Source: Methanothrix soehngenii GP6 (GTDB taxonomy: Archaea > Halobacteriota > Methanosarcinia > Methanotrichales > Methanotrichaceae). From it: DNA of 64,000 nt. The stretch spans positions 620,001 to 684,000 of the forward strand of contig NC_015416.1 in assembly GCF_000204415.1 (NCBI RefSeq), in the 5' to 3' direction. A model generated the notes under the pieces. It ran no database searches and was not told the DNA's origin. It worked only from the letters and a program-made list of their open reading frames with translations. Positions 7,460 through 16,841 of the stretch are shown here, one piece after another. The stretch's first letter is position 1. The number at the start of each line of letters is the position of its first letter. A program made the position numbers and the translations under genes.

Positions 7460-7600
7460 CATTTATAATTAGCAAAATATACACTGCGCGGGCCAGATGA
7501 CCGCTAGCCTCCTATGCCTCCACCAGCGCCCCCACCCGCAGCCTGCCGGCCATCAGCCCCTCTCGCATGACTCGGGAGAACTCACCTTGCAGGTTGGATC
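7460..7600 (-). pseudogene. hsdS 3'-end remnant 1
   Basis: On the minus strand this stretch reads NLQGEFSRVMREGLMAGRLRVG and on to ALVEA then a stop at 7512-7514. It matches the C-terminus of the intact HsdS (SLHDELFRAMLEELMNGRL) and remnants 2 and 3. Only the last 30 or so codons survive. Similarity to remnant 2 continues past the stop (shared CGGGCCAG-TGACCGC and CTATGCCTCCACCAG), so a longer unit was duplicated. It closes the HicAB block on the left. Confidence 0.7.
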
Positions 7601-7625
7601 AGTCGATTGTGACCTGCAATTTTCA

Positions 7626-7847
7626 CTAAGCTGAAAGCCATTCTTCTCGAGATATACCGACATCTTTCAGAATGGTCTTGATCAGGCGAACATCCACATC
7701 CCTGCCCTGATGAGGATTTGGCAATATGATAACCGTCTCTCCAATGATCATGTAAGGGTGCTTGTTGCCAGAGTGTGGTCCCTCCAGGCCCAGATTTTTG
7801 AGCTTTTTTATGAGGACGCGGTAAGGGACCGGAGTCAATTTACACAA
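7626..7847 (-). CDS. hicA: HicA-family mRNA interferase toxin
   Basis: 73 residues, starting at a TTG that overlaps the end of hicB by 8 bases; a second in-frame TTG lies at 7838. It has the short double-stranded-RNA-binding fold of HicA: a first helix (YRVLIKKLKNLGLEG), then the GNKHPYMIIGETVIILPNPHQGRDVDVRLIKTILKDVGIS pattern, with His34 in the position of the catalytic His. HicA cleaves mRNA when free of HicB. Overlapping gene order hicB-hicA supports a type II toxin-antitoxin pair. Confidence 0.85.
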   Translation of the reverse strand: MCKLTPVPYRVLIKKLKNLGLEGPHSGNKHPYMIIGETVIILPNPHQGRDVDVRLIKTILKDVGISREEWLSA

Positions 7848-8130
7848 TAGCCATCGGCTCCCCAGAGACGTCTATCGTATGACCATCGATGGCCGGTATA
7901 GCAAAGCCTCTTTGCAGGCGTATGGCAACCCACTCTTCAATTACTTCTATGAGATCGTCCCGACAAGTTTCGATCGTCTCTCCGGTAGCGATCACTCCCG
8001 GAAGGCCGGCTACCGTAGCCATGTAAGAGCCATCCTTCAGGGATTCGTATTTGGCCCGACTCAAAGCTGCTCTGATGTACTCTGAGAACATAATGGATTC
8101 TATTCCAGTATGGGATTTAACTGTTATCAT
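7840..8130 (-). CDS. hicB: HicB-family antitoxin
   Basis: 96 residues. The core KDGSYMATVAGLPGVIATGETIETCRDDLIEVIEEWVAIRLQRG is the HicB partial RNase H-like fold that binds HicA. ATG 8130 gives the N-terminus MITVKSHTG; an internal ATG at 8091 (MFSEYIRAAL) is the alternative. No C-terminal helix-turn-helix is present, so any autoregulation would come from another element. The pair lies between two hsdS 3' remnants in the accessory island. Confidence 0.82.
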   Translation of the reverse strand: MITVKSHTGIESIMFSEYIRAALSRAKYESLKDGSYMATVAGLPGVIATGETIETCRDDLIEVIEEWVAIRLQRGFAIPAIDGHTIDVSGEPMAIV

Positions 8131-8480
8131 GAGTTAGCTCAGAGACATCCTGGAATTATAATGATGATTTCATTATGATTGCGTTGTGGCTTCTTATGCC
8201 TCTTTTCAGTGGGGCGCAGCGCGCGGTTGTTGCGCGTGATAGAGGCCGGCGACTATCAGAGCCAGGAAATACATGTGGGCTGTCGATTGTTCTTGATATA
8301 TTGAGGTTAATATTAATCCTTCAAATCTGTTTTTTTAGTGGGCGACGCGCGCGGTTAAACGCGCGGAAGTGCCCTGCCCCCCCTCAGCGCCGGGGAGGCT
8401 TGGATACAGTGGCGGCAAAGGTTGCTGGATAGTGCAGCACCTGCAATATCGATTTTTTCGAAATGAGAATTGAGCGAAGC
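8131..8480. other. Non-coding stretch with two related GC-rich hairpin repeats
   Basis: No gene is supported here. Two similar segments at about 8203-8236 and 8333-8366 share TTTT-AGTGGG followed by GC-rich inverted repeats: CGCGC with GCGCG around GGTTGTT, and CGCGCG with CGCGCG around GTTAAA. The alternating CG tracts contrast with the A/T-rich surroundings. They may be terminators or leftover ends of a mobile or recombining unit; nothing decides this. Confidence 0.4.
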
Positions 8481-8489
8481 CCTAAATAT

Positions 8490-8665
8490 TATAATTATAA
8501 GAATATGTCTACGTCGGGCCAGCTGACCGCCTGCCTCCAACCACCATCTCCAACAGGATCTCTATGCCTCCACCAGTGCCTCCCGCTCGCAGCCCGTCGG
8601 TCATCAGCTCCTCTGTCATGGCCAGGAAAAGCTCGTCGTGCAGGCGGGCCAGTGATCGAAGCAAC
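8490..8665 (-). pseudogene. hsdS 3'-end remnant 2
   Basis: The minus-strand reading LRSLARLHDELFLAMTEELM, then TDGLRAGG, matches the C-terminus of intact HsdS. The frame is then lost through an insertion of about 30 bases relative to remnant 1, after which the shared tail (CGGGCCAGCTGACCGC) resumes. It is non-functional and lies between hicAB and the 8785-10130 module. Confidence 0.7.
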
Positions 8666-8784
8666 GGGAAAGCGCATCTCTTGTTTATCTGAGAAAATCG
8701 AAGTCAAGGCTCCAAAGATAATATTTGATGTTAGTGTCCAAATCCAGTTAAATTGAAATAGAATGGGAAAGAAAATTAATCATA

Positions 8785-9831
8785 ATGGATTCAGGGCAAT
8801 CGACTTTGATATTAAGATTATGCACCTCTGAGGGGGAAAAAGTCGGATTGGAGGATGCTGGAAAATTGTTGATATCCCTGCAAGAGATTGCCTGGCACAT
8901 GGGCAGTTTTCTGGAAGGCCAACCATTCAGTGAGGGCGGCCGACTTAAAAAGCAGATTTTGGATGACTATTGTCTTCTAATTAAATCAATCAGTTCAGGC
9001 AGCGTCGTAGTTGAAGTTGAGTCGGCAGTTAAATATGGACAGCCCGAGATCGATAATTTTCAAAAGTATCAACCGCCCGGGCCGAGAGTGATCACTAAAA
9101 TCACAGATTTTATTGCTTCAGTTGAGGGCGAAGAGGGTCGAGAAGTGGACGATGTTGTCCCCGATCATGCTTACAGATCGCGTTTGCTCCTGGATCTACT
9201 TAATCTATACCCGAAGAAGCCCAATTATGCATTGCACTTTGAGGGCCAGGGCGGCAGAAGCTTTGAAATGAAAGCCGCTAATCGGGGCCGCATTGAAGGA
9301 TTAATTTCTCAACGTCAGCGACATTTGGGCCAGGAAGTCCGAATAGGGCTCTTAGCAGACTTGCGAGTTGACCCTGAGAAGGTAATGAAGATCGAAAGAA
9401 TAGGCGAGAAATTCCAGGCGGTATACCCCGGCGATTTGGAGGCCAGTGCCAGGGATCTACTGGGACATCCGGTTAAATTAACCGGACGTGCCGAGCGCAT
9501 TAGCGGCAGTCCAAAGATCAAGAATTTTTATGTGGATAAAATTGAGCCTTATGAGAGCTATCAGCTGGAAGAATTTGAGGCAGGAGATCGTATCTTTGTC
9601 CCCCGAATTCCCATTGAAGTGAGCGTTGAATACGATGAAGGTCTCTGGGTTCTGAGCATACCCTACGTCGACGCCGTTGGGTATTCCACAGATTATTACG
9701 AGGCAGAAAATCAACTCCATGACTTCATAGATGAACTATGGACGGAATATGCACTCTGTCCCGAGGATGATCTAGGTGAGACCGGAAAGCTGTTGCGAGA
9801 AGTCCTGTTAGGACTCTTTGAGGTGAATTAA
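8785..9831 (+). CDS. Large protein with C-terminal HicB-like domain, putative antitoxin or sensor of a two-gene module
   Basis: 348 residues. The last 75 residues (IPIEVSVEYDEGLWVLSIPYVDAVGYSTDYYEAENQLHDFIDELWTEYALCPEDD) have the strand-helix pattern of a HicB-like fold. The first 270 residues match nothing I recognise: an alpha/beta start (LILRLCTSEGEKVGLEDAGKLLISLQEIAWHMGSFLEG), then SISSGSVVVEVES and a basic middle (RGRIEGLISQRQRHLGQEVRIG). Its TAA overlaps the next ATG by one base, so the two are translationally coupled. Codon use is more A/T-rich than in core genes. A toxin-antitoxin or defence role is inferred from the partner gene and location. Confidence 0.6.
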   Translation: MDSGQSTLILRLCTSEGEKVGLEDAGKLLISLQEIAWHMGSFLEGQPFSEGGRLKKQILDDYCLLIKSISSGSVVVEVESAVKYGQPEIDNFQKYQPPGPRVITKITDFIASVEGEEGREVDDVVPDHAYRSRLLLDLLNLYPKKPNYALHFEGQGGRSFEMKAANRGRIEGLISQRQRHLGQEVRIGLLADLRVDPEKVMKIERIGEKFQAVYPGDLEASARDLLGHPVKLTGRAERISGSPKIKNFYVDKIEPYESYQLEEFEAGDRIFVPRIPIEVSVEYDEGLWVLSIPYVDAVGYSTDYYEAENQLHDFIDELWTEYALCPEDDLGETGKLLREVLLGLFEVN

Positions 9832-10130
9832 TGACCTCGCTCAACCAGGATGAGGTCGAAGCAGGACTAAAACGAAAGGGCTTTCAGCAAAGTAATAATA
9901 AACATAAATACTATCATTTATATATCAATGGGAAAAAGGAAGCTGGGACTCATGTAAGTCATGGGAAGAATCAAGAGATCGGTCCCAGATTGTTAGGTCC
10001 AATGGCAAAAGAGCTGGGAATAAACATAAAAGACTTTGTGGATTTAGTGAGGTGCCCTCTTACTATTGAGGAATACCTCAACAAGAGGAAAGAGAGGTTT
10101 GTGGAAGGGATTAAGATAATAAAAAGATAA
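9831..10130 (+). CDS. HicA-like small protein, putative toxin of a two-gene module
   Basis: 99 residues starting at the ATG that overlaps the previous stop. The pattern EVEAGLKRKGFQQSNNKHKYYHLYINGKKEAGTHVSHGKNQEIGPRLLGPMAKELGIN follows the HicA fold: first helix, GF turn, two strands, a His-bearing strand (HVSHG), then a helix. The extra C-terminal helix (FVDLVRCPLTIEEYLNKRKERF) exceeds the usual HicA length of 60-80. Together with the upstream HicB-like tail this suggests an expanded HicBA-type module. Catalytic activity cannot be judged from sequence alone. Confidence 0.6.
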   Translation: MTSLNQDEVEAGLKRKGFQQSNNKHKYYHLYINGKKEAGTHVSHGKNQEIGPRLLGPMAKELGINIKDFVDLVRCPLTIEEYLNKRKERFVEGIKIIKR

Positions 10131-10164
10131 AATCCGTAATAAATAGATTGACCTATGACTTATC

Positions 10165-10275
10165 AGACACAAGCGCCCCCGCCCGCAGCCTGCCCGTCAT
10201 CAGCTCCTTTTGCCTGGCCCGGAAGAGAAGAGCTCGTCGTGCAGGCGGGCCTCGTGATCGAAGCGAAGATCCTGG
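10165..10275 (-). pseudogene. hsdS 3'-end remnant 3
   Basis: The minus strand reads LRFDHEARLHDELF, then loses frame by a small indel, and resumes in another frame as RQKELMTGRLRAGALV. Both halves match the HsdS C-terminus and the GRLR-GALVE tail of remnant 1. It lies just past the stop of the GajB-like gene and marks the left edge of the Gabija block. Confidence 0.7.
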
Positions 10276-10299
10276 AATGTTTGATTTCAAAAATTCATA

Positions 10300-12096
10300 T
10301 CATAAAAATTCCATCAATGAATGTTGTCTCTCGAATAGAAAAATTTGCTCAAAATTGTCGACAAAATCTGATCTCAATGTTCTTAAAGCGTTATATGTGT
10401 CGCGATGAATGCAAAGAATTAGAGTCTTCTTAGCTCTAGATGCGGCCACAAAGGCAACGCGGCGTTCTTCTGAAGGACCATCTGGCCACCATTCAACAGA
10501 AGGACAAGGCGAATTATTAGGGCTGGGTTTAGGGACCAATATAACGACGCATTCAAACTCGTCGCCTTTAACTTGGTGAATGGTTTTTATGGTTGCCCTT
10601 TCAATTAAACTATCACTTGATTCCAGGTGTTCAGCCATCTTTCGAAGTACATTACCTTTTAGATTTTGCTTCAAATTATCCGAAATCCTTCTTTTATCAA
10701 ATTCGCAATTGAGATCGAGCGCGGAATCTAGAATTAGCTTCCTTATTCTCAACAGCCACTCATTCCATGTCTCATCTTTCTTATCGATGCTGGCTTCTTT
10801 AAGTATTTGATAAATGATCCTTCGCCATTTAATTAGATCAACATCAAGATCACGAAGGTCGTTCATGGAAGGTGAATCATTTTTAAACAGAATCCAAGCG
10901 AGTTCTCTTTCCACTATATGCGAAGCGACTTTTGATTGGTCAGAACGAAGCATTTGCACAGCGTTTTCGATATTCTTTCCTGAATGAGAAACCCCTCTAA
11001 AGCTAGAGATTGATTCACCCAAAAAAGTTCTTAAGGTTAATTCGCGTCTCGATATGATAGCCAGCTGATCTTCTTCTTCACAAAATTTGCTTATATTCGC
11101 TATAACTTTTTTGTTTCTATCTATTTTTTCCATATCGTGCACCAAAATTATTGCCGATCCTTGATCTGCGTTATCTCTTGGCAAGACTTGTTTGCCGGTA
11201 TCGGAAAGTGCAGTTGCGATAGCAGCAATCTTCTTCGGGCAACGATGTGTTTGATTCAAAGGCAAAGACTTGGCACCAGGTAAATTTTCAATATCTTTAA
11301 ATAGATCAGGATTGGCACCTCCGAATTCAAAAATTGCTTGATCTGGATCTCCCACAACTAATCCAGACTCCAGGAAAGGAGAACGCAATAATTCTATTAA
11401 AGCAAGTCCAAGAAACCAATTAGTGTCCTGAAATTCATCAACAAGTATCATAGGAAATCTACGAGTAACCAGTTCCGAGACTTTTTTCCCGAATTCCGGA
11501 TGACACAAAATTAAGGAAGATATATATTGGCAGTCTGAGTGAGTAATTCTGCCTCGCTTTCTCCATTCTGCTTTCTTCTTCTTTAAAATATTCGATGTAT
11601 AATCAGGCTCAATATCAATCTGACCTCGAAATGTCTTTGCTTTCATGTTTGGTTTATGGAGTGGGCCATCTGCAAATCTGATGCTGAATAAACTAATTTT
11701 TTGACCACTGGAGTCAATCTCTACTTCCGGATATTCAATTGCTTCATCCAAAGGAGACGGTATGAGACGATGGCCTTCTTTAGGTAATCCTACAAGGTGA
11801 CCAAATGGACGAACGACGTATCTTAACGCAAACGCATCAAGTGTTCCGATAAAGTGAGGGTAAGGCAGGTGTTTGCCGATGCCTTCAGCAATTTGCTCCT
11901 GAGCCACATTCGTAAAAGAAATTGAAGCTATGCCAGCATTTTTCTTTGTCCACGAATCGATACGCATTTTCAAGGACTCTACAAATACACGTGTTTTGCC
12001 GCTACCGGGACACGCACGAACAACTGTTATGCGTGAATTGCTGTCAATTACAGCTTTTTGCTCCGGCGTTGGAAAATTATCGGCACAGGTCTTCAT
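10300..12096 (-). CDS. gajB: Gabija-type UvrD/Rep-like helicase (GajB)
   Basis: About 598 residues from the ATG at 12096, which has GGTG upstream and overlaps the end of gajA by 20 bases. Superfamily 1 helicase motifs are in order: Q-motif-like NFPTPEQKAVID, Walker A ACPGSGKTR, ISFTNVAQEQI (Ia), ILVDEFQDTN (II), VVGDPDQAIFEFGGA (III), TIHQVKGDEFECVVIL (V) and FVAASRAKKTLILC (VI). In Gabija defence, GajB works with the OLD-family nuclease GajA against phage. The adjacency, overlap and order here match that system. Codon use is A/T-rich, consistent with transfer. Confidence 0.85.
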   Translation of the reverse strand: MKTCADNFPTPEQKAVIDSNSRITVVRACPGSGKTRVFVESLKMRIDSWTKKNAGIASISFTNVAQEQIAEGIGKHLPYPHFIGTLDAFALRYVVRPFGHLVGLPKEGHRLIPSPLDEAIEYPEVEIDSSGQKISLFSIRFADGPLHKPNMKAKTFRGQIDIEPDYTSNILKKKKAEWRKRGRITHSDCQYISSLILCHPEFGKKVSELVTRRFPMILVDEFQDTNWFLGLALIELLRSPFLESGLVVGDPDQAIFEFGGANPDLFKDIENLPGAKSLPLNQTHRCPKKIAAIATALSDTGKQVLPRDNADQGSAIILVHDMEKIDRNKKVIANISKFCEEEDQLAIISRRELTLRTFLGESISSFRGVSHSGKNIENAVQMLRSDQSKVASHIVERELAWILFKNDSPSMNDLRDLDVDLIKWRRIIYQILKEASIDKKDETWNEWLLRIRKLILDSALDLNCEFDKRRISDNLKQNLKGNVLRKMAEHLESSDSLIERATIKTIHQVKGDEFECVVILVPKPSPNNSPCPSVEWWPDGPSEERRVAFVAASRAKKTLILCIHRDTYNALRTLRSDFVDNFEQIFLFERQHSLMEFL

Positions 12097-13918
12097 GGGG
12101 ACACCCGGTTGCGTGATAGATGGCGCGTTTAATATAATCAGGAACAATGAAATACTCATCATTGGATTCAAGCATTTCTGCTAGCTCTTGAGCCAGATCG
12201 CCTTTCCCACTGCTTGGATTAGCCCGACAGATCCCGCGCCAAACTGCAAGTACACGCTTCTCATGATCATTACCACATGCCTTAAGTCTGTCTAGATTAA
12301 AAGTTCTCGGCCGATTCGAACAACTTTCCCAGGCCCGACATATCATCTCGGGGTTTTTCTCACCGGCATCAGCCAAATCATATTCCAATGTAACTTTTGA
12401 AGGAAATACGCTTGCAACTGGGTTGTCTATAAATTCGGCTAAGAGCTTGATTACCCTATCGCAGACTTCTATATTCCCTTCATCGTCTTTTTTTGGAATC
12501 TCATTGGTCCAATTTTTTTCGCCATCATTTTCGTATTGAATACTAGGATCTCCGTCAGTTATAATTGAAAGAGGTATTTTTAATTTATTTTCTCCAAATA
12601 GTTTAGCAATAGTTGAAAATTGTACACCGCAAATAGGGATTACGGAAATCCCTTTCTCCTCAAGTTTAATGTCTAATCTCCTGGATAGCGCGGGAATAAG
12701 AATAGCCTCTGTAACGCCTTCGACTAAAATTATTCCCCGTGCAAATAGAAGTGTAGCTCTCGTAACATCGAACATTCTTCTGAGCTGGTAAGCCTCTTTT
12801 TTCGTTAATCCGCATTCACGTAGGCACATACAACGGAGCTTTCCAGAAGGATCTCTATGGAGAACTCTGAGTATTTCGATGGGAACGTATGACGCTATTG
12901 TTGGAGAGTGAGCAGTTACAATTACCTGGACGCCATGAGTCTCACTGCTTCCTGCACCGCGTTTCAGAAGGAAATTTATAAGCAAGATCTGTAATTGTGG
13001 ATGTAAATGCGCCTCGGGCTCTTCGACAAGTAGAAGTGGAAGTGCAGCCTGTGCTACAGTTTCAAGTTCGCTGAGCACAGTAGCAATATAAATTAGATTA
13101 TTATATCCCAACCCATTTGATCTTAGTTCCCGAGTTATCGGCTTACCTGTGGCCAAATCCAAATCGCTAATCTTCAGCACTAGGCGTAAATTATTAGCAA
13201 TTCGGTCAAATTCTGGCTCGGATGATCTGATAATTGCTTCTTGTTTGAACTCCGGCCCAGAAGCACCTTCTAGAGCCATGCTTATTTTTTCCTCAGCACT
13301 TCTTACAAATGGATTCTGTTCTAAATCGTTGTTGGCTTTAGAGATTACTTCCTCCAATTGAGCTTTATCGTGTGCATTTGCAGATACTCTTAAAAGACGT
13401 CCTAAACGATTTTGTCTACCGGGCGCTAGACCGCTGGACGCATCTCTCAATGCACCGAGTAGTGTTATTGAGAGCATTTGTAGTATATCCTCTGAGATCG
13501 ATGTTTCTGAATTTGACCTTTCGCCCCCCCAACGTCGATAATATCCACGGTCATTAGTTTCATTCCATGACCACTCAAAGTGGATGCTAGCGGTTGATTT
13601 TTCGGGAAATTTAGGATTATAATTCAGTATTTCTAAAAACTGAGCTTGTTCTTCTTCTGAAAGCTCTGAAAATATTAAATCTACTATTATCGATTTATCT
13701 ATCATATTGCCATCAGAGCTACGATGAAGATCTTCTTTTGAAAGATGAATCGGCTCCGAATTATTCCATGCAGAACCTAATGCAACACGTAGTGCATCCA
13801 AGAGATTTGTCTTCCCAACATTATTTTCTCCTACTATAACATTGAGGCCTGGAGAAAGATTTGCTTCCAGCGACTCTAAATTTCGAAAGTTGTGCACGCT
13901 GATTTTGCTTAAATACAT
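12077..13918 (-). CDS. gajA: Gabija-type OLD-family ATPase/TOPRIM nuclease (GajA)
   Basis: 613 residues. N-terminal ABC-type ATPase: SVHNFRNLESLEANLSPG, Walker A VGENNVGKTN, Walker B LLLVEEPEAHLHPQ and H-loop VTAHSPTIASYVP. The C-terminal TOPRIM domain has the catalytic Glu in GIILVEGVTEAILIPAL and the D-x-D-like element SIITDGDPS. This is the class 2 OLD layout, whose neighbour is a UvrD-like helicase, as here. GajA nicks DNA and is released from inhibition when nucleotides are depleted during infection (family knowledge). It follows hsdS by 24 bases. Confidence 0.87.
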   Translation of the reverse strand: MYLSKISVHNFRNLESLEANLSPGLNVIVGENNVGKTNLLDALRVALGSAWNNSEPIHLSKEDLHRSSDGNMIDKSIIVDLIFSELSEEEQAQFLEILNYNPKFPEKSTASIHFEWSWNETNDRGYYRRWGGERSNSETSISEDILQMLSITLLGALRDASSGLAPGRQNRLGRLLRVSANAHDKAQLEEVISKANNDLEQNPFVRSAEEKISMALEGASGPEFKQEAIIRSSEPEFDRIANNLRLVLKISDLDLATGKPITRELRSNGLGYNNLIYIATVLSELETVAQAALPLLLVEEPEAHLHPQLQILLINFLLKRGAGSSETHGVQVIVTAHSPTIASYVPIEILRVLHRDPSGKLRCMCLRECGLTKKEAYQLRRMFDVTRATLLFARGIILVEGVTEAILIPALSRRLDIKLEEKGISVIPICGVQFSTIAKLFGENKLKIPLSIITDGDPSIQYENDGEKNWTNEIPKKDDEGNIEVCDRVIKLLAEFIDNPVASVFPSKVTLEYDLADAGEKNPEMICRAWESCSNRPRTFNLDRLKACGNDHEKRVLAVWRGICRANPSSGKGDLAQELAEMLESNDEYFIVPDYIKRAIYHATGCPHEDLCR

Positions 13919-13942
13919 ATTTATCTCCCTCCTTCATCCAAA

Positions 13943-15199
13943 TTAGATATCGTTGAGTACGGAAGAATCTGATCCGGATTCGATCAAATATCTGGTCAAG
14001 AGTCTCCCATTCATCAGCTCCTCCAGCATAGCTCGGAAAAGCTCATCATGCAGACTGGCCTCATGCTCCAAGGCGGTGATCTTTGAATCGCAGGCGCTTA
14101 GAATATCACTAATTTGTTTCTGTTCTTCCATCGATGAAAACGGAATTCTAAGTCTTTTAACATCTGCCACGTTTAAATGTTTGGCTGTTACACCGCTTGA
14201 GATTGCCATCATGATGGATCTTATTGCATTGGAATAAAACACCTGAACCAAGAAAAATCTATTCAATTTTGAGGTGTCAACTCTTAGCAGCATCATCCTC
14301 TGTCCTAAGCACAATCTTACATCTGGAGGAACAAGACATGCTTCTCCAACTGGTGCTTCTCGACTGAATAAAACATCGCCTTCAGTAGGTTCACAACGTT
14401 TGACCCTCTCAGAATATTCTTCTTCTGTTGTATAAGAGGGAAACTTTAAATCCAATCGTCCATTTCTGATATTGAAATTTCTTACAACAAGAACTCCTGC
14501 AGGCGAAAAGTGAGGCGTACTATGGGGGCAATCGACAATTTTTATACATGCCTCCTCTAATTGAATCATGGACCAGCTCTCCGGCATCTCCCCGATCTCC
14601 GTCATCTTGGTCGGCTCGCCTCTGGTTCCATGCGTGAAGAGGTGCTCCATCAATGCCGCCTTTCGCTCCCTCTCCAGCGCAATCTCCCGCAACCGGGCCT
14701 CCCGCGCCGCCTGCACCGCGCGCATGGCACGGGCGATGGCGCGCTGCTCGGGAAGAGGTGGGAGCAGAAACTTAAACGCAGATATAGAAGACCAAGAAGT
14801 TCTAGGATGATTCAAGCCCTTAGATGAATTTACAGCATAATTTATGAATTGGCTGGTATGAATAATATTAACCAAGAATTGAGGGACAATTGATTCTTTG
14901 GTCTTCAAAACGAGAATATCGGTAGAGCACATACCATCAAAATCAACTAACACCGATTTATCAAGGTATGGTCTCAGTTTTCCGTAAAGAATATCTCCTG
15001 AATGAAACTTTGATTTAGAGCTGTTTACCTCAAAGCTGCTCCCACTCCTTTTTAGTATTGAATTGCTAGAATCAATATGTTCTAAACCAACATAAGGCAG
15101 ATCAGGGTATTTGTTGGGATGTATTGCTTCTTTACGTAATTCACACACTTCATCCAGTGATATCATTTTCCAACTAGAAGGGGTGTCCACATAATCCAT
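13943..15199 (-). CDS. hsdS: Type I restriction-modification specificity subunit HsdS
   Basis: About 418 residues from the ATG at 15199, one base after the hsdM stop. Two target-recognition domains: the first about residues 5-160 (SWKMISLDEVCELRKEAIHPNKY), the second about 205-365 (SWSMIQLEEACIKIVDCPHSTPHF). Each is followed by a conserved helical spacer: LPEQRAIARAMRAVQAAREARLREIALERERKAALMEHLF and MEEQKQISDILSACDSKITALEHEASLHDELFRAMLEELM. The tail after GRL (LTRYLIESGSDSS...) differs from that predicted for three decayed copies downstream, which end GRLR-GALVEA. Confidence 0.9.
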   Translation of the reverse strand: MDYVDTPSSWKMISLDEVCELRKEAIHPNKYPDLPYVGLEHIDSSNSILKRSGSSFEVNSSKSKFHSGDILYGKLRPYLDKSVLVDFDGMCSTDILVLKTKESIVPQFLVNIIHTSQFINYAVNSSKGLNHPRTSWSSISAFKFLLPPLPEQRAIARAMRAVQAAREARLREIALERERKAALMEHLFTHGTRGEPTKMTEIGEMPESWSMIQLEEACIKIVDCPHSTPHFSPAGVLVVRNFNIRNGRLDLKFPSYTTEEEYSERVKRCEPTEGDVLFSREAPVGEACLVPPDVRLCLGQRMMLLRVDTSKLNRFFLVQVFYSNAIRSIMMAISSGVTAKHLNVADVKRLRIPFSSMEEQKQISDILSACDSKITALEHEASLHDELFRAMLEELMNGRLLTRYLIESGSDSSVLNDI

Positions 15200-15200
15200 T

Positions 15201-16841
15201 TTAATACGCCTCAAGCTTGAGCGTATTAAGAATTTCCGCCAGCTCCCCATCCGCCCTCTCCCTCTCCGCCCTTGCCTCTTCCAAATCCGCCAGAATCTCC
15301 GCAATGGGCCGATGCTTCTCCCGCTCGTTTATCTCCACAAACTGCGACGGGCTGAGGTTGTAGTCCGCCTCCCTCACCTCGTCCAGGGTGATCACCCGGC
15401 TGAGCTTCTCTCGCGTCTCCCATTTCTGGTAGACCTCCGCCACCGCTGCAATTCCCTCCGGGGTGAGAGCGTTCTTGGGCTTCTCCTTCACAAAGTAGTT
15501 GGAGGCATTGACCAGCAAAATCTGCCCGGCTCGCTCCTCTGGCTTGCCCTTTCTCAAAAGCAATATGATTCCGGGTGCGGTGGTGTTGTAGAACAGGTTC
15601 TCAGGCAGGAGCACCACCCCCTCGATGGCGTCCGCTTCGACAAAAGCCTGCCGGATGGCCTTCTCCCGGTTCGAGGACCTAGACCCCGAACCACGGGAGA
15701 CGGCACCCGTGTCCAGGACCACAGCCGCCCTCCCGCCCTCTTTCAGGGAGGCGAACATGTGCTGCACCCATCCCCAGTCTGCCGAGGAGCGGGGCGGTAT
15801 GCCGAAGTTGAAGCGGTTGAAGGAGTCGTTCTCGTAAAATGCATCATCATAGTTGTCCTGGTTCCACATCGGATTGGCGACCACGTAATCGAACTGCATG
15901 AGCGAGCCCTCCGGGCCGAATCCCGGCTTTCTGAAGGTGTCTCCAATGGCAAAGCTCGAATCGGTGTAGTCATGCAGGAACATGTTCATCTTGGCCATGG
16001 CGAAGGTGACCGGATTCAGCTCCTGGCCCCACAGCCTTGGCGCCCGCGACCGCTCATCCGGATGACGACGCTCATACAGCAGCCGGGCCTTGATCAAGAG
16101 GCCACCCGAGCCGCAGGCCGGATCGTAAATGGTGCTGTAGGGCACGGGATCGATCAGCTCGGCAATGAGGTCCCCTACCTCTTTCGGGGTGTAAAACTCC
16201 CCCGCAGACTGCCCCTGCCCCTCGGCGAACTTGCGCAGCAGATACTCATATGCCCTTCCTAAGATATCGGGCTCTGCATTCTCCAGCCCAAGCCTATGCC
16301 GGCTCAAGACCTCGATTAGTGCCCCCAGCCGGTCGTCGTCTAAAGTGCGCTGCCCTGACTGGCGCTCATTGTAGTCCTTGATATCCAGGACGCCCTGCAG
16401 GTCGGGATTAAGCCTGGCAACCTCCCGCAGGGATTCCGTCACGAACTCCCCCAGCCGGCCATCTGCACCGTGATTGCGAATGGCCCTCCAGTTATAGTCC
16501 CCGGGAACGTAGAATCTGATTATGGGAGTGCTCCCCGTCTTCAGAGAGTGGGCCAGGTCCTCTTCAACAATAGTCCTGGCTAGCTCTTCGTCCCCGTATT
16601 CCCGGACGTGAGCGGCAAACTCATCCTCGAAGACGTCGGAGAGGCGCTTGAAGAAGACCAAAGGCAGGATGAAGTCCTTGAACTTGGGCGCGTCCGTTGC
16701 CCCCCGGATAGCGCAGGCCGCATCCCACAGCCATGTCTCGAGCATTGAAATATCCAGATGGGCGTCCTCCGCCAGGGCGGGGGCCACCTGCCCTGTTGAA
16801 TTCAGTCCAATGGTATTGTTGTTCCTTTTTCTCCTCGCCAC
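15201..16841 (-). CDS. hsdM: Type I N6-adenine DNA methyltransferase HsdM
   Basis: 546 residues. The N-terminal HsdM helical domain (WLWDAACAIRGATDAPKFKDFILPLVFFKRLSDVFEDE) is followed by the methylase core with SAM motif I, YDPACGSGGLLI, near residue 247, and the catalytic motif IV as NPMW (YVVANPMWNQDNYDD) instead of the usual NPPW/F. GQSAGEFYTPKEV is typical of the family. With HsdS it forms the M2S methylase. No HsdR nuclease is found on either side in this window, so restriction is either encoded elsewhere or lost. Confidence 0.92.
   Translation of the reverse strand: MARRKRNNNTIGLNSTGQVAPALAEDAHLDISMLETWLWDAACAIRGATDAPKFKDFILPLVFFKRLSDVFEDEFAAHVREYGDEELARTIVEEDLAHSLKTGSTPIIRFYVPGDYNWRAIRNHGADGRLGEFVTESLREVARLNPDLQGVLDIKDYNERQSGQRTLDDDRLGALIEVLSRHRLGLENAEPDILGRAYEYLLRKFAEGQGQSAGEFYTPKEVGDLIAELIDPVPYSTIYDPACGSGGLLIKARLLYERRHPDERSRAPRLWGQELNPVTFAMAKMNMFLHDYTDSSFAIGDTFRKPGFGPEGSLMQFDYVVANPMWNQDNYDDAFYENDSFNRFNFGIPPRSSADWGWVQHMFASLKEGGRAAVVLDTGAVSRGSGSRSSNREKAIRQAFVEADAIEGVVLLPENLFYNTTAPGIILLLRKGKPEERAGQILLVNASNYFVKEKPKNALTPEGIAAVAEVYQKWETREKLSRVITLDEVREADYNLSPSQFVEINEREKHRPIAEILADLEEARAERERADGELAEILNTLKLEAY

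Follow-up and report, generated by a model that had tools for sequence, protein, structure and literature searches.

Short repeats derived from the 3' end of hsdS, about 60-110 bp long, now non-coding and lying in a single orientation, bound toxin-antitoxin (TA) and defence cassettes in the genus Methanothrix, and comparison of their sequences makes it moderately probable that these cassettes have been shuffled by recombination at the repeats. The window, that is, the whole 64,000-bp stretch analyzed here (bases 620001-684000 of contig 1 in a 3.0-Mb genome of 2 contigs), contains three such remnants, R1 to R3, besides an intact hsdS gene.

Genes and Tail Repeats of the Locus

On the minus strand, the locus runs from hsdM and hsdS through gajA, gajB, R3, two plus-strand genes, R2, hicB and hicA to R1, after which a convergent MFS gene follows. 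Its features, in that order, are:

15201..16841, minus strand: hsdM, type I DNA methyltransferase subunit (Pfam N6_Mtase and HsdM_N; 86% identical relative in G024)
13943..15304, minus strand: intact hsdS (Pfam Methylase_S twice; PADLOC Specificity_I; ORF start perhaps called too early)
13985..14073, minus strand: 3' end of the intact hsdS, a homologue of the remnants from another lineage (68.9 bits to profile R1; codon-position test)
12077..13918, minus strand: gajA, Gabija ATPase/TOPRIM (PADLOC GajA, E=3e-197; Pfam AAA_15 and OLD-like_TOPRIM)
10300..12171, minus strand: gajB, Gabija UvrD-like helicase (PADLOC GajB, E=5e-71; Pfam UvrD-helicase)
10168..10263, minus strand: hsdS-tail repeat R3 (84.6 bits to profile R1; 37 bp after gajB and 38 bp from the 99-aa gene)
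9831..10130, plus strand: 99-aa weakly HicA-like protein (Pfam HicA_toxin, E=0.033, below cut-off; 75% identical in L105)
8785..9831, plus strand: 348-aa protein, partner of the 99-aa gene (no Pfam match; 72% identical in L105)
8570..8661, minus strand: hsdS-tail repeat R2 (76.9 bits to the profile; sequence common with R1 extends to ~8489)
7840..8130, minus strand: hicB antitoxin (Pfam UPF0150, E=1e-25; 80% identical hicB in L104, 83 bp downstream of a tail)
7626..7847, minus strand: hicA toxin (Pfam HicA_toxin, E=1e-5; 25.9 bits, cut-off 27)
7520..7603, minus strand: hsdS-tail repeat R1 (68.5 bits to the profile; sequence common with R2 extends to ~7463)

The earlier note on this DNA had read three decayed hsdS 3' ends beside the intact one, all in a single orientation, and both pairwise alignment and the limits of the profile matches bore this out. 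Similarity among the four tail segments is far above chance, with pairwise local alignment scores of 34-95 against maxima of 24-29 for 300 random window segments, and an unsupervised repeat search grouped the same four segments. When the whole genome was searched with the DNA of R3, copies were found at this locus only, the next match elsewhere reaching E=0.02 over 18 bp. The likeness of R1 and R2 was found to run on past the stop, as had been noticed before, and R1 retains mainly the 3' half of the tail. The remnants end in GRLRAGALVEA, the native type of end in this HsdS family (a bacterial relative has GRLAALALVEGE, for example), whereas the resident HsdS, in agreement with the earlier observation, ends differently and is ~10 aa longer.

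Each interval between copies had also been taken to contain one complete cargo, and this was confirmed with corrections to one pair. GajA, with ATPase and TOPRIM domains, is followed by the UvrD-like GajB according to both Pfam and PADLOC, as expected of a Gabija system, and at 7626-8130 a clear UPF0150 match in hicB stands with a hicA match just under the Pfam cut-off. The pair at 8785-10130 did not qualify as HicAB in Pfam, since the 99-aa match stays below the cut-off and the 348-aa protein, formerly called HicB-like, has no match at all; a single-sequence structure model of the latter (pLDDT 45) was too poor for use, and the protein was absent from the viral contigs and plasmids searched. 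This pair is conserved in at least four genomes (window, 8785-10130; L105, 641-1995; L189; L190) and is a candidate new TA type judging from these sequences. hsdM and hsdS (13943-16841) look intact, and the window gave no match to hsdR or DUF45, so that hsdM, hsdS and hsdR of a type I restriction-modification system do not stand together at one locus; Gabija occupies the place where hsdR would be, and hsdR genes lie far from the locus at C1:79719 and 855339. The hsdM-hsdS pair is possibly an orphan methyltransferase.

Origin of the Tails

When the resident hsdS was compared with the three remnants of the window, to which it is 66, 64 and 57% identical, 38 of 72 third positions differed against 25 of 138 first and second positions (p=5e-7, an indicative value because the pairs are not independent). 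Among the remnants themselves, differences were found at 12 of 69 third positions and 36 of 132 first and second positions, with no third-position bias. The former pattern implies that the resident hsdS and the ancestor of the remnants diverged as working genes, and the latter that the remnants drifted apart when already non-coding. Together, these patterns indicate that the remnants multiplied from one other hsdS tail and then decayed as non-coding DNA, and that the resident hsdS end was not their source. The coding-type divergence argues against the simple form of the suggestion that every event had added another copy of the resident end.

Outside the genus, the nearest full-length HsdS tails, identified by peptide-pattern search, belong to bacterial operons of the hsdM-hsdS-hsdR type, DUF45 being present in most, and the same gene order recurs in a more distant archaeal operon. 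hsdS and hsdR overlap in some related operons, and extra genes, including HicB-like ones, lie between them in L177, L180 and L182 as judged from ORFs. Such genes at the hsdS/hsdR junction make a recombination hub of hsdS origin reasonable, as had been suggested of homologous recombination, and we infer that the arrays began at this junction. In another archaeal family, a recombinase-looking ORF (judged by eye only) was noticed at a contig end beside a complete hsdM-hsdS-hsdR-DUF45 operon (L144, 2-988).

Tails in Other Genomes

A 32-aa tail query recovered fragments in four other members of the genus. With a sequence-only profile run over 50 genomes of the family, where matches below about 23 bits occurred in nearly all genomes and were counted as noise, 12 clear copies were identified beyond those of the window, spread over six other genomes of the genus. 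The total is 15 remnants in seven genomes at eight loci, of which several lie at contig ends and not all are independent, and MAG assemblies may misjoin repeats. All 12 outside copies adjoin TA genes, and at several sites no hsd gene is nearby and the cargo is flanked by two direct tail copies. Read in the direction of the tails, the layouts are:

Window: hsdM, hsdS with its tail, gajAB, tail, 99-aa and 348-aa genes (inverted), tail, hicBA, tail
G021: tail, 99-aa and 348-aa genes (inverted), tail, hicB remnant
G020: HicB (inverted), tail, hicBA, hicB, DUF104 remnant, hicB, hsdR, DUF45
G027: tail, HicB (inverted), tail, DUF104 remnant; at another place, tail, DUF104-PIN
G039: DUF3786, tail, DUF104-PIN, tail, hicB
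G030: tail, DUF104-PIN, tail
G022: tail, DUF262 fragment (tail end), DUF104-PIN, tail

At L103, the tail is thus followed by hicBA/hicB and then by hsdR-DUF45. Where these PIN or 348-aa proteins have homologues at other loci, the homologues carry no tail; the tail therefore does not belong inherently to the cargo. The tails are 55-88% alike, those of the same locus being hardly closer (73%) than others (71%), and their tree is star-like, with the G030/G022 group alone well supported. A more conserved core within the tails, AGGAGCTGATGA, was considered and was not significant (p=0.06). No tail was found in viral contigs, and in plasmids only the HsdS genes of two Firmicutes matched, at 35-42%. 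Beside one tail (L102, 108-3136), a second, GC-rich repeat of about 150-430 bp, 79-91% identical, is present in three copies around hicB and cupin genes and possibly represents another family of cassette borders.

Cassette Borders and the gsh/PNPOx Site

At most junctions the cargo ends 14-38 bp from the tail, and the next gene usually follows 43-124 bp beyond it. The window and G021 (L105) have the order hicB, tail, 348-aa/99-aa pair, tail in common, with different flanks. The DUF104-PIN cassettes of G039 (L104) and G030 (L141), at different loci, are 83% identical from the tail 3' end to the PIN end; the HicB-tail blocks of G027 (L140) and G020 (L103) are 78% identical, and this identity stops at the tail end, the cargo beyond being different. 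Furthermore, the orthologous loci of the close relatives G022 (L142) and G030 (L141) differ on the left side of a breakpoint that falls within the final tail bases. The earlier proposal of cassette insertion or exchange at the hsdS 3' end therefore stands insofar as the copies bound cassettes, relatives show similar arrangements and tails form the breakpoints between loci; it fails insofar as it took each event to leave a copy of this particular hsdS end, and a site-specific target is unproven.

Between gsh and PNPOx, the orthologous spot at which G022 and G030 carry their cassettes, relatives that have no cassette showed 53 bp (G024) or 105 bp (G003) and no tail, which indicates that a unit with two tails entered a place without one. 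The two tails around DUF104-PIN at this site have a 2-bp insertion in common and group with 94% bootstrap. The site of G027 was considered as a further empty example and rejected, since the left flank and 20 bp of a tail are kept, the trace of a later deletion. The same intergenic spot contains a fragment that we take to be DUF262-like in two genomes (L142, 3737-3922; L152, ~2750-2880), which suggests a small insertion hot spot. As to an empty counterpart of the window site, the MFS gene is kept in 42 of 50 family genomes and the other window flanks were not near it in the six relatives inspected; in G024, the contig that carries the hsdM relative ends inside hsdS.

Proposed Recombination at the Tails and Alternative Explanations

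The tails would go back to the 3' end of a single ancestral hsdS in an hsdM-hsdS-hsdR-DUF45 operon, where the first cargo may have been taken up at the hsdS/hsdR junction, and later cassettes would have been added, lost and moved through tail-tail recombination. Most simply, one crossover could integrate an excised circle with one tail, so that N cargos come to lie among N+1 direct copies. In the present genome, hsdR would have disappeared from the locus, leaving Gabija directly behind a now different hsdS. We infer this order of events, the circle and crossover, and a benefit to the host. Tail-tail recombination explains the breakpoints at the tails. It does not explain the entry at gsh/PNPOx, where both tails came to a previously tail-less place and another route is needed, for example an illegitimate insertion, or a larger island that has since decayed. 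Further observations count against this explanation, namely that excision products, circles and within-species polymorphism were not seen, that tails 55-88% alike are now marginal for homologous recombination, and that the 348-aa/99-aa pair and one HicB are opposite in direction to the tails.

Alternatively, the hsdS 3' end might have served a mobile element as its attB site, so that with each insertion the gene was made whole again and a copy of its end was pushed downstream, the integrase having since been lost or acting in trans. The fixed 5' limit of the remnants, their direct orientation and the N+1 copies would all be expected of such integration, as would a resident hsdS that differs at its extreme 3' end while R1 retains the 3' half, and direct repeats of the gene end do bound the inserts in the window. 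No displaced copy matching the 3' end of the resident gene was found there, however, and the gsh/PNPOx cassette sits where no tail existed. No integrase gene was recognized among the window ORFs at 1-24000, and the nearest tyrosine-recombinase matches in the genome, searched with the PF00589 profile only, lie >600 kb from the locus, with no integron integrase linked to the array; the viral contigs also lack the tail. Single-strand folds of the attC kind were not significant in the tails (DNA fold z-scores -1.6 to +2.3; consensus fold weak), and none of the 15 tails has an R'/R'' box pair. The site-specific target suggested earlier thus remained unproven, and we consider it unlikely.

Plain decay of several former hsdS genes alternating with TA genes, or of segmental duplications, would leave the tails without a role in cassette movement. 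The tails are clearly dead hsdS DNA, and the hicB-tail-348aa-99aa-tail order recurring in L105 would fit inheritance of one old array. Yet none of the 15 remnants extends clearly upstream of HsdS residue ~396 of 453, all lying within about the last 40-60 codons with upstream hsdS pieces absent, and this fixed limit argues against full genes having decayed at random. Nor do the remnants show the third-position bias that separate former genes would be expected to leave; cassettes are present where no hsd gene lies, and the remnant sites yielded no full-length hsdS. Such decay, which the earlier note had kept as an alternative, is in our judgment distinctly unlikely. Spread of TA cassettes by illegitimate insertion into repeat-rich intergenic DNA, dragging the hsdS end of the original operon along as a passenger, is very improbable, because it does not by itself explain copies on both sides of the cargo or differing cargo types between copies, even though the DUF104 leader runs directly on from an hsdS-like end (GGTGGAACCAGAAG and variants) at three loci and other repeats crowd the same loci (L102).

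Comparison With Known Systems

Recombination at hsdS-derived repeats would bear on the way in which defence islands of archaea acquire small TA and anti-virus modules and change their order although no recombinase is visible, and since a marker that keeps its orientation lies at each cassette junction, the question can be tested by strain comparison. For annotation, a short hsdS tail next to TA genes need not be just a broken gene but can mark the border of a cassette. No published description of hsdS-tail arrays was found in the open-licence literature.

Genomic islands integrate at gene 3' ends and leave displaced 3'-end copies. Likewise, direct gene-end copies with a fixed inner boundary bound the cargo here; unlike such islands, the locus has no integrase, the copies mismatch the resident gene end, and cassettes also occur at a formerly tail-less site. 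In rhs/CDI loci, which contain orphan C-terminal modules, the displaced ends encode toxins. In both cases an intact gene is followed downstream by a row of displaced gene ends with adjoining cargo, but the tail here is dead and the cargo separate. The several partial hsdS copies next to an intact one also resemble hsdS shufflons, for example of Streptococcus pneumoniae, which recombine by inversion and switch specificity (PMC4948785), although the present tails are direct, short and without a target-recognition domain.

Among Campylobacter hsd loci, the R-linked ORFs (rlo) are genes located between hsdR and hsdS (Miller et al., 2005, as cited in PMC5183652). Intervening genes between hsdR and hsdS are likewise present in L103 and several bacterial relatives, and the window locus departs from this arrangement in lacking hsdR. 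We know of no repeated hsdS tails in rlo loci.

Integron gene-cassette arrays include archaeal integrons (PMC9668308) and arrays without an integrase. A Methanothrix cassette system, in which TA and anti-virus genes would be captured and exchanged with the ~100-bp hsdS-derived repeat as the recombination site, might be an integron-like platform without an integron integrase, working through homologous recombination or a recombinase novel to us, a reading to which we give little credence. The window locus differs from integron arrays in having no nearby integrase, in tails without significant single-strand folds or R'/R'' boxes (0/15), and in a repeat that derives from a protein gene. Like integron arrays, it presents a row of small genes, often TA, each beside a repeat of ~100 bp, in one orientation.
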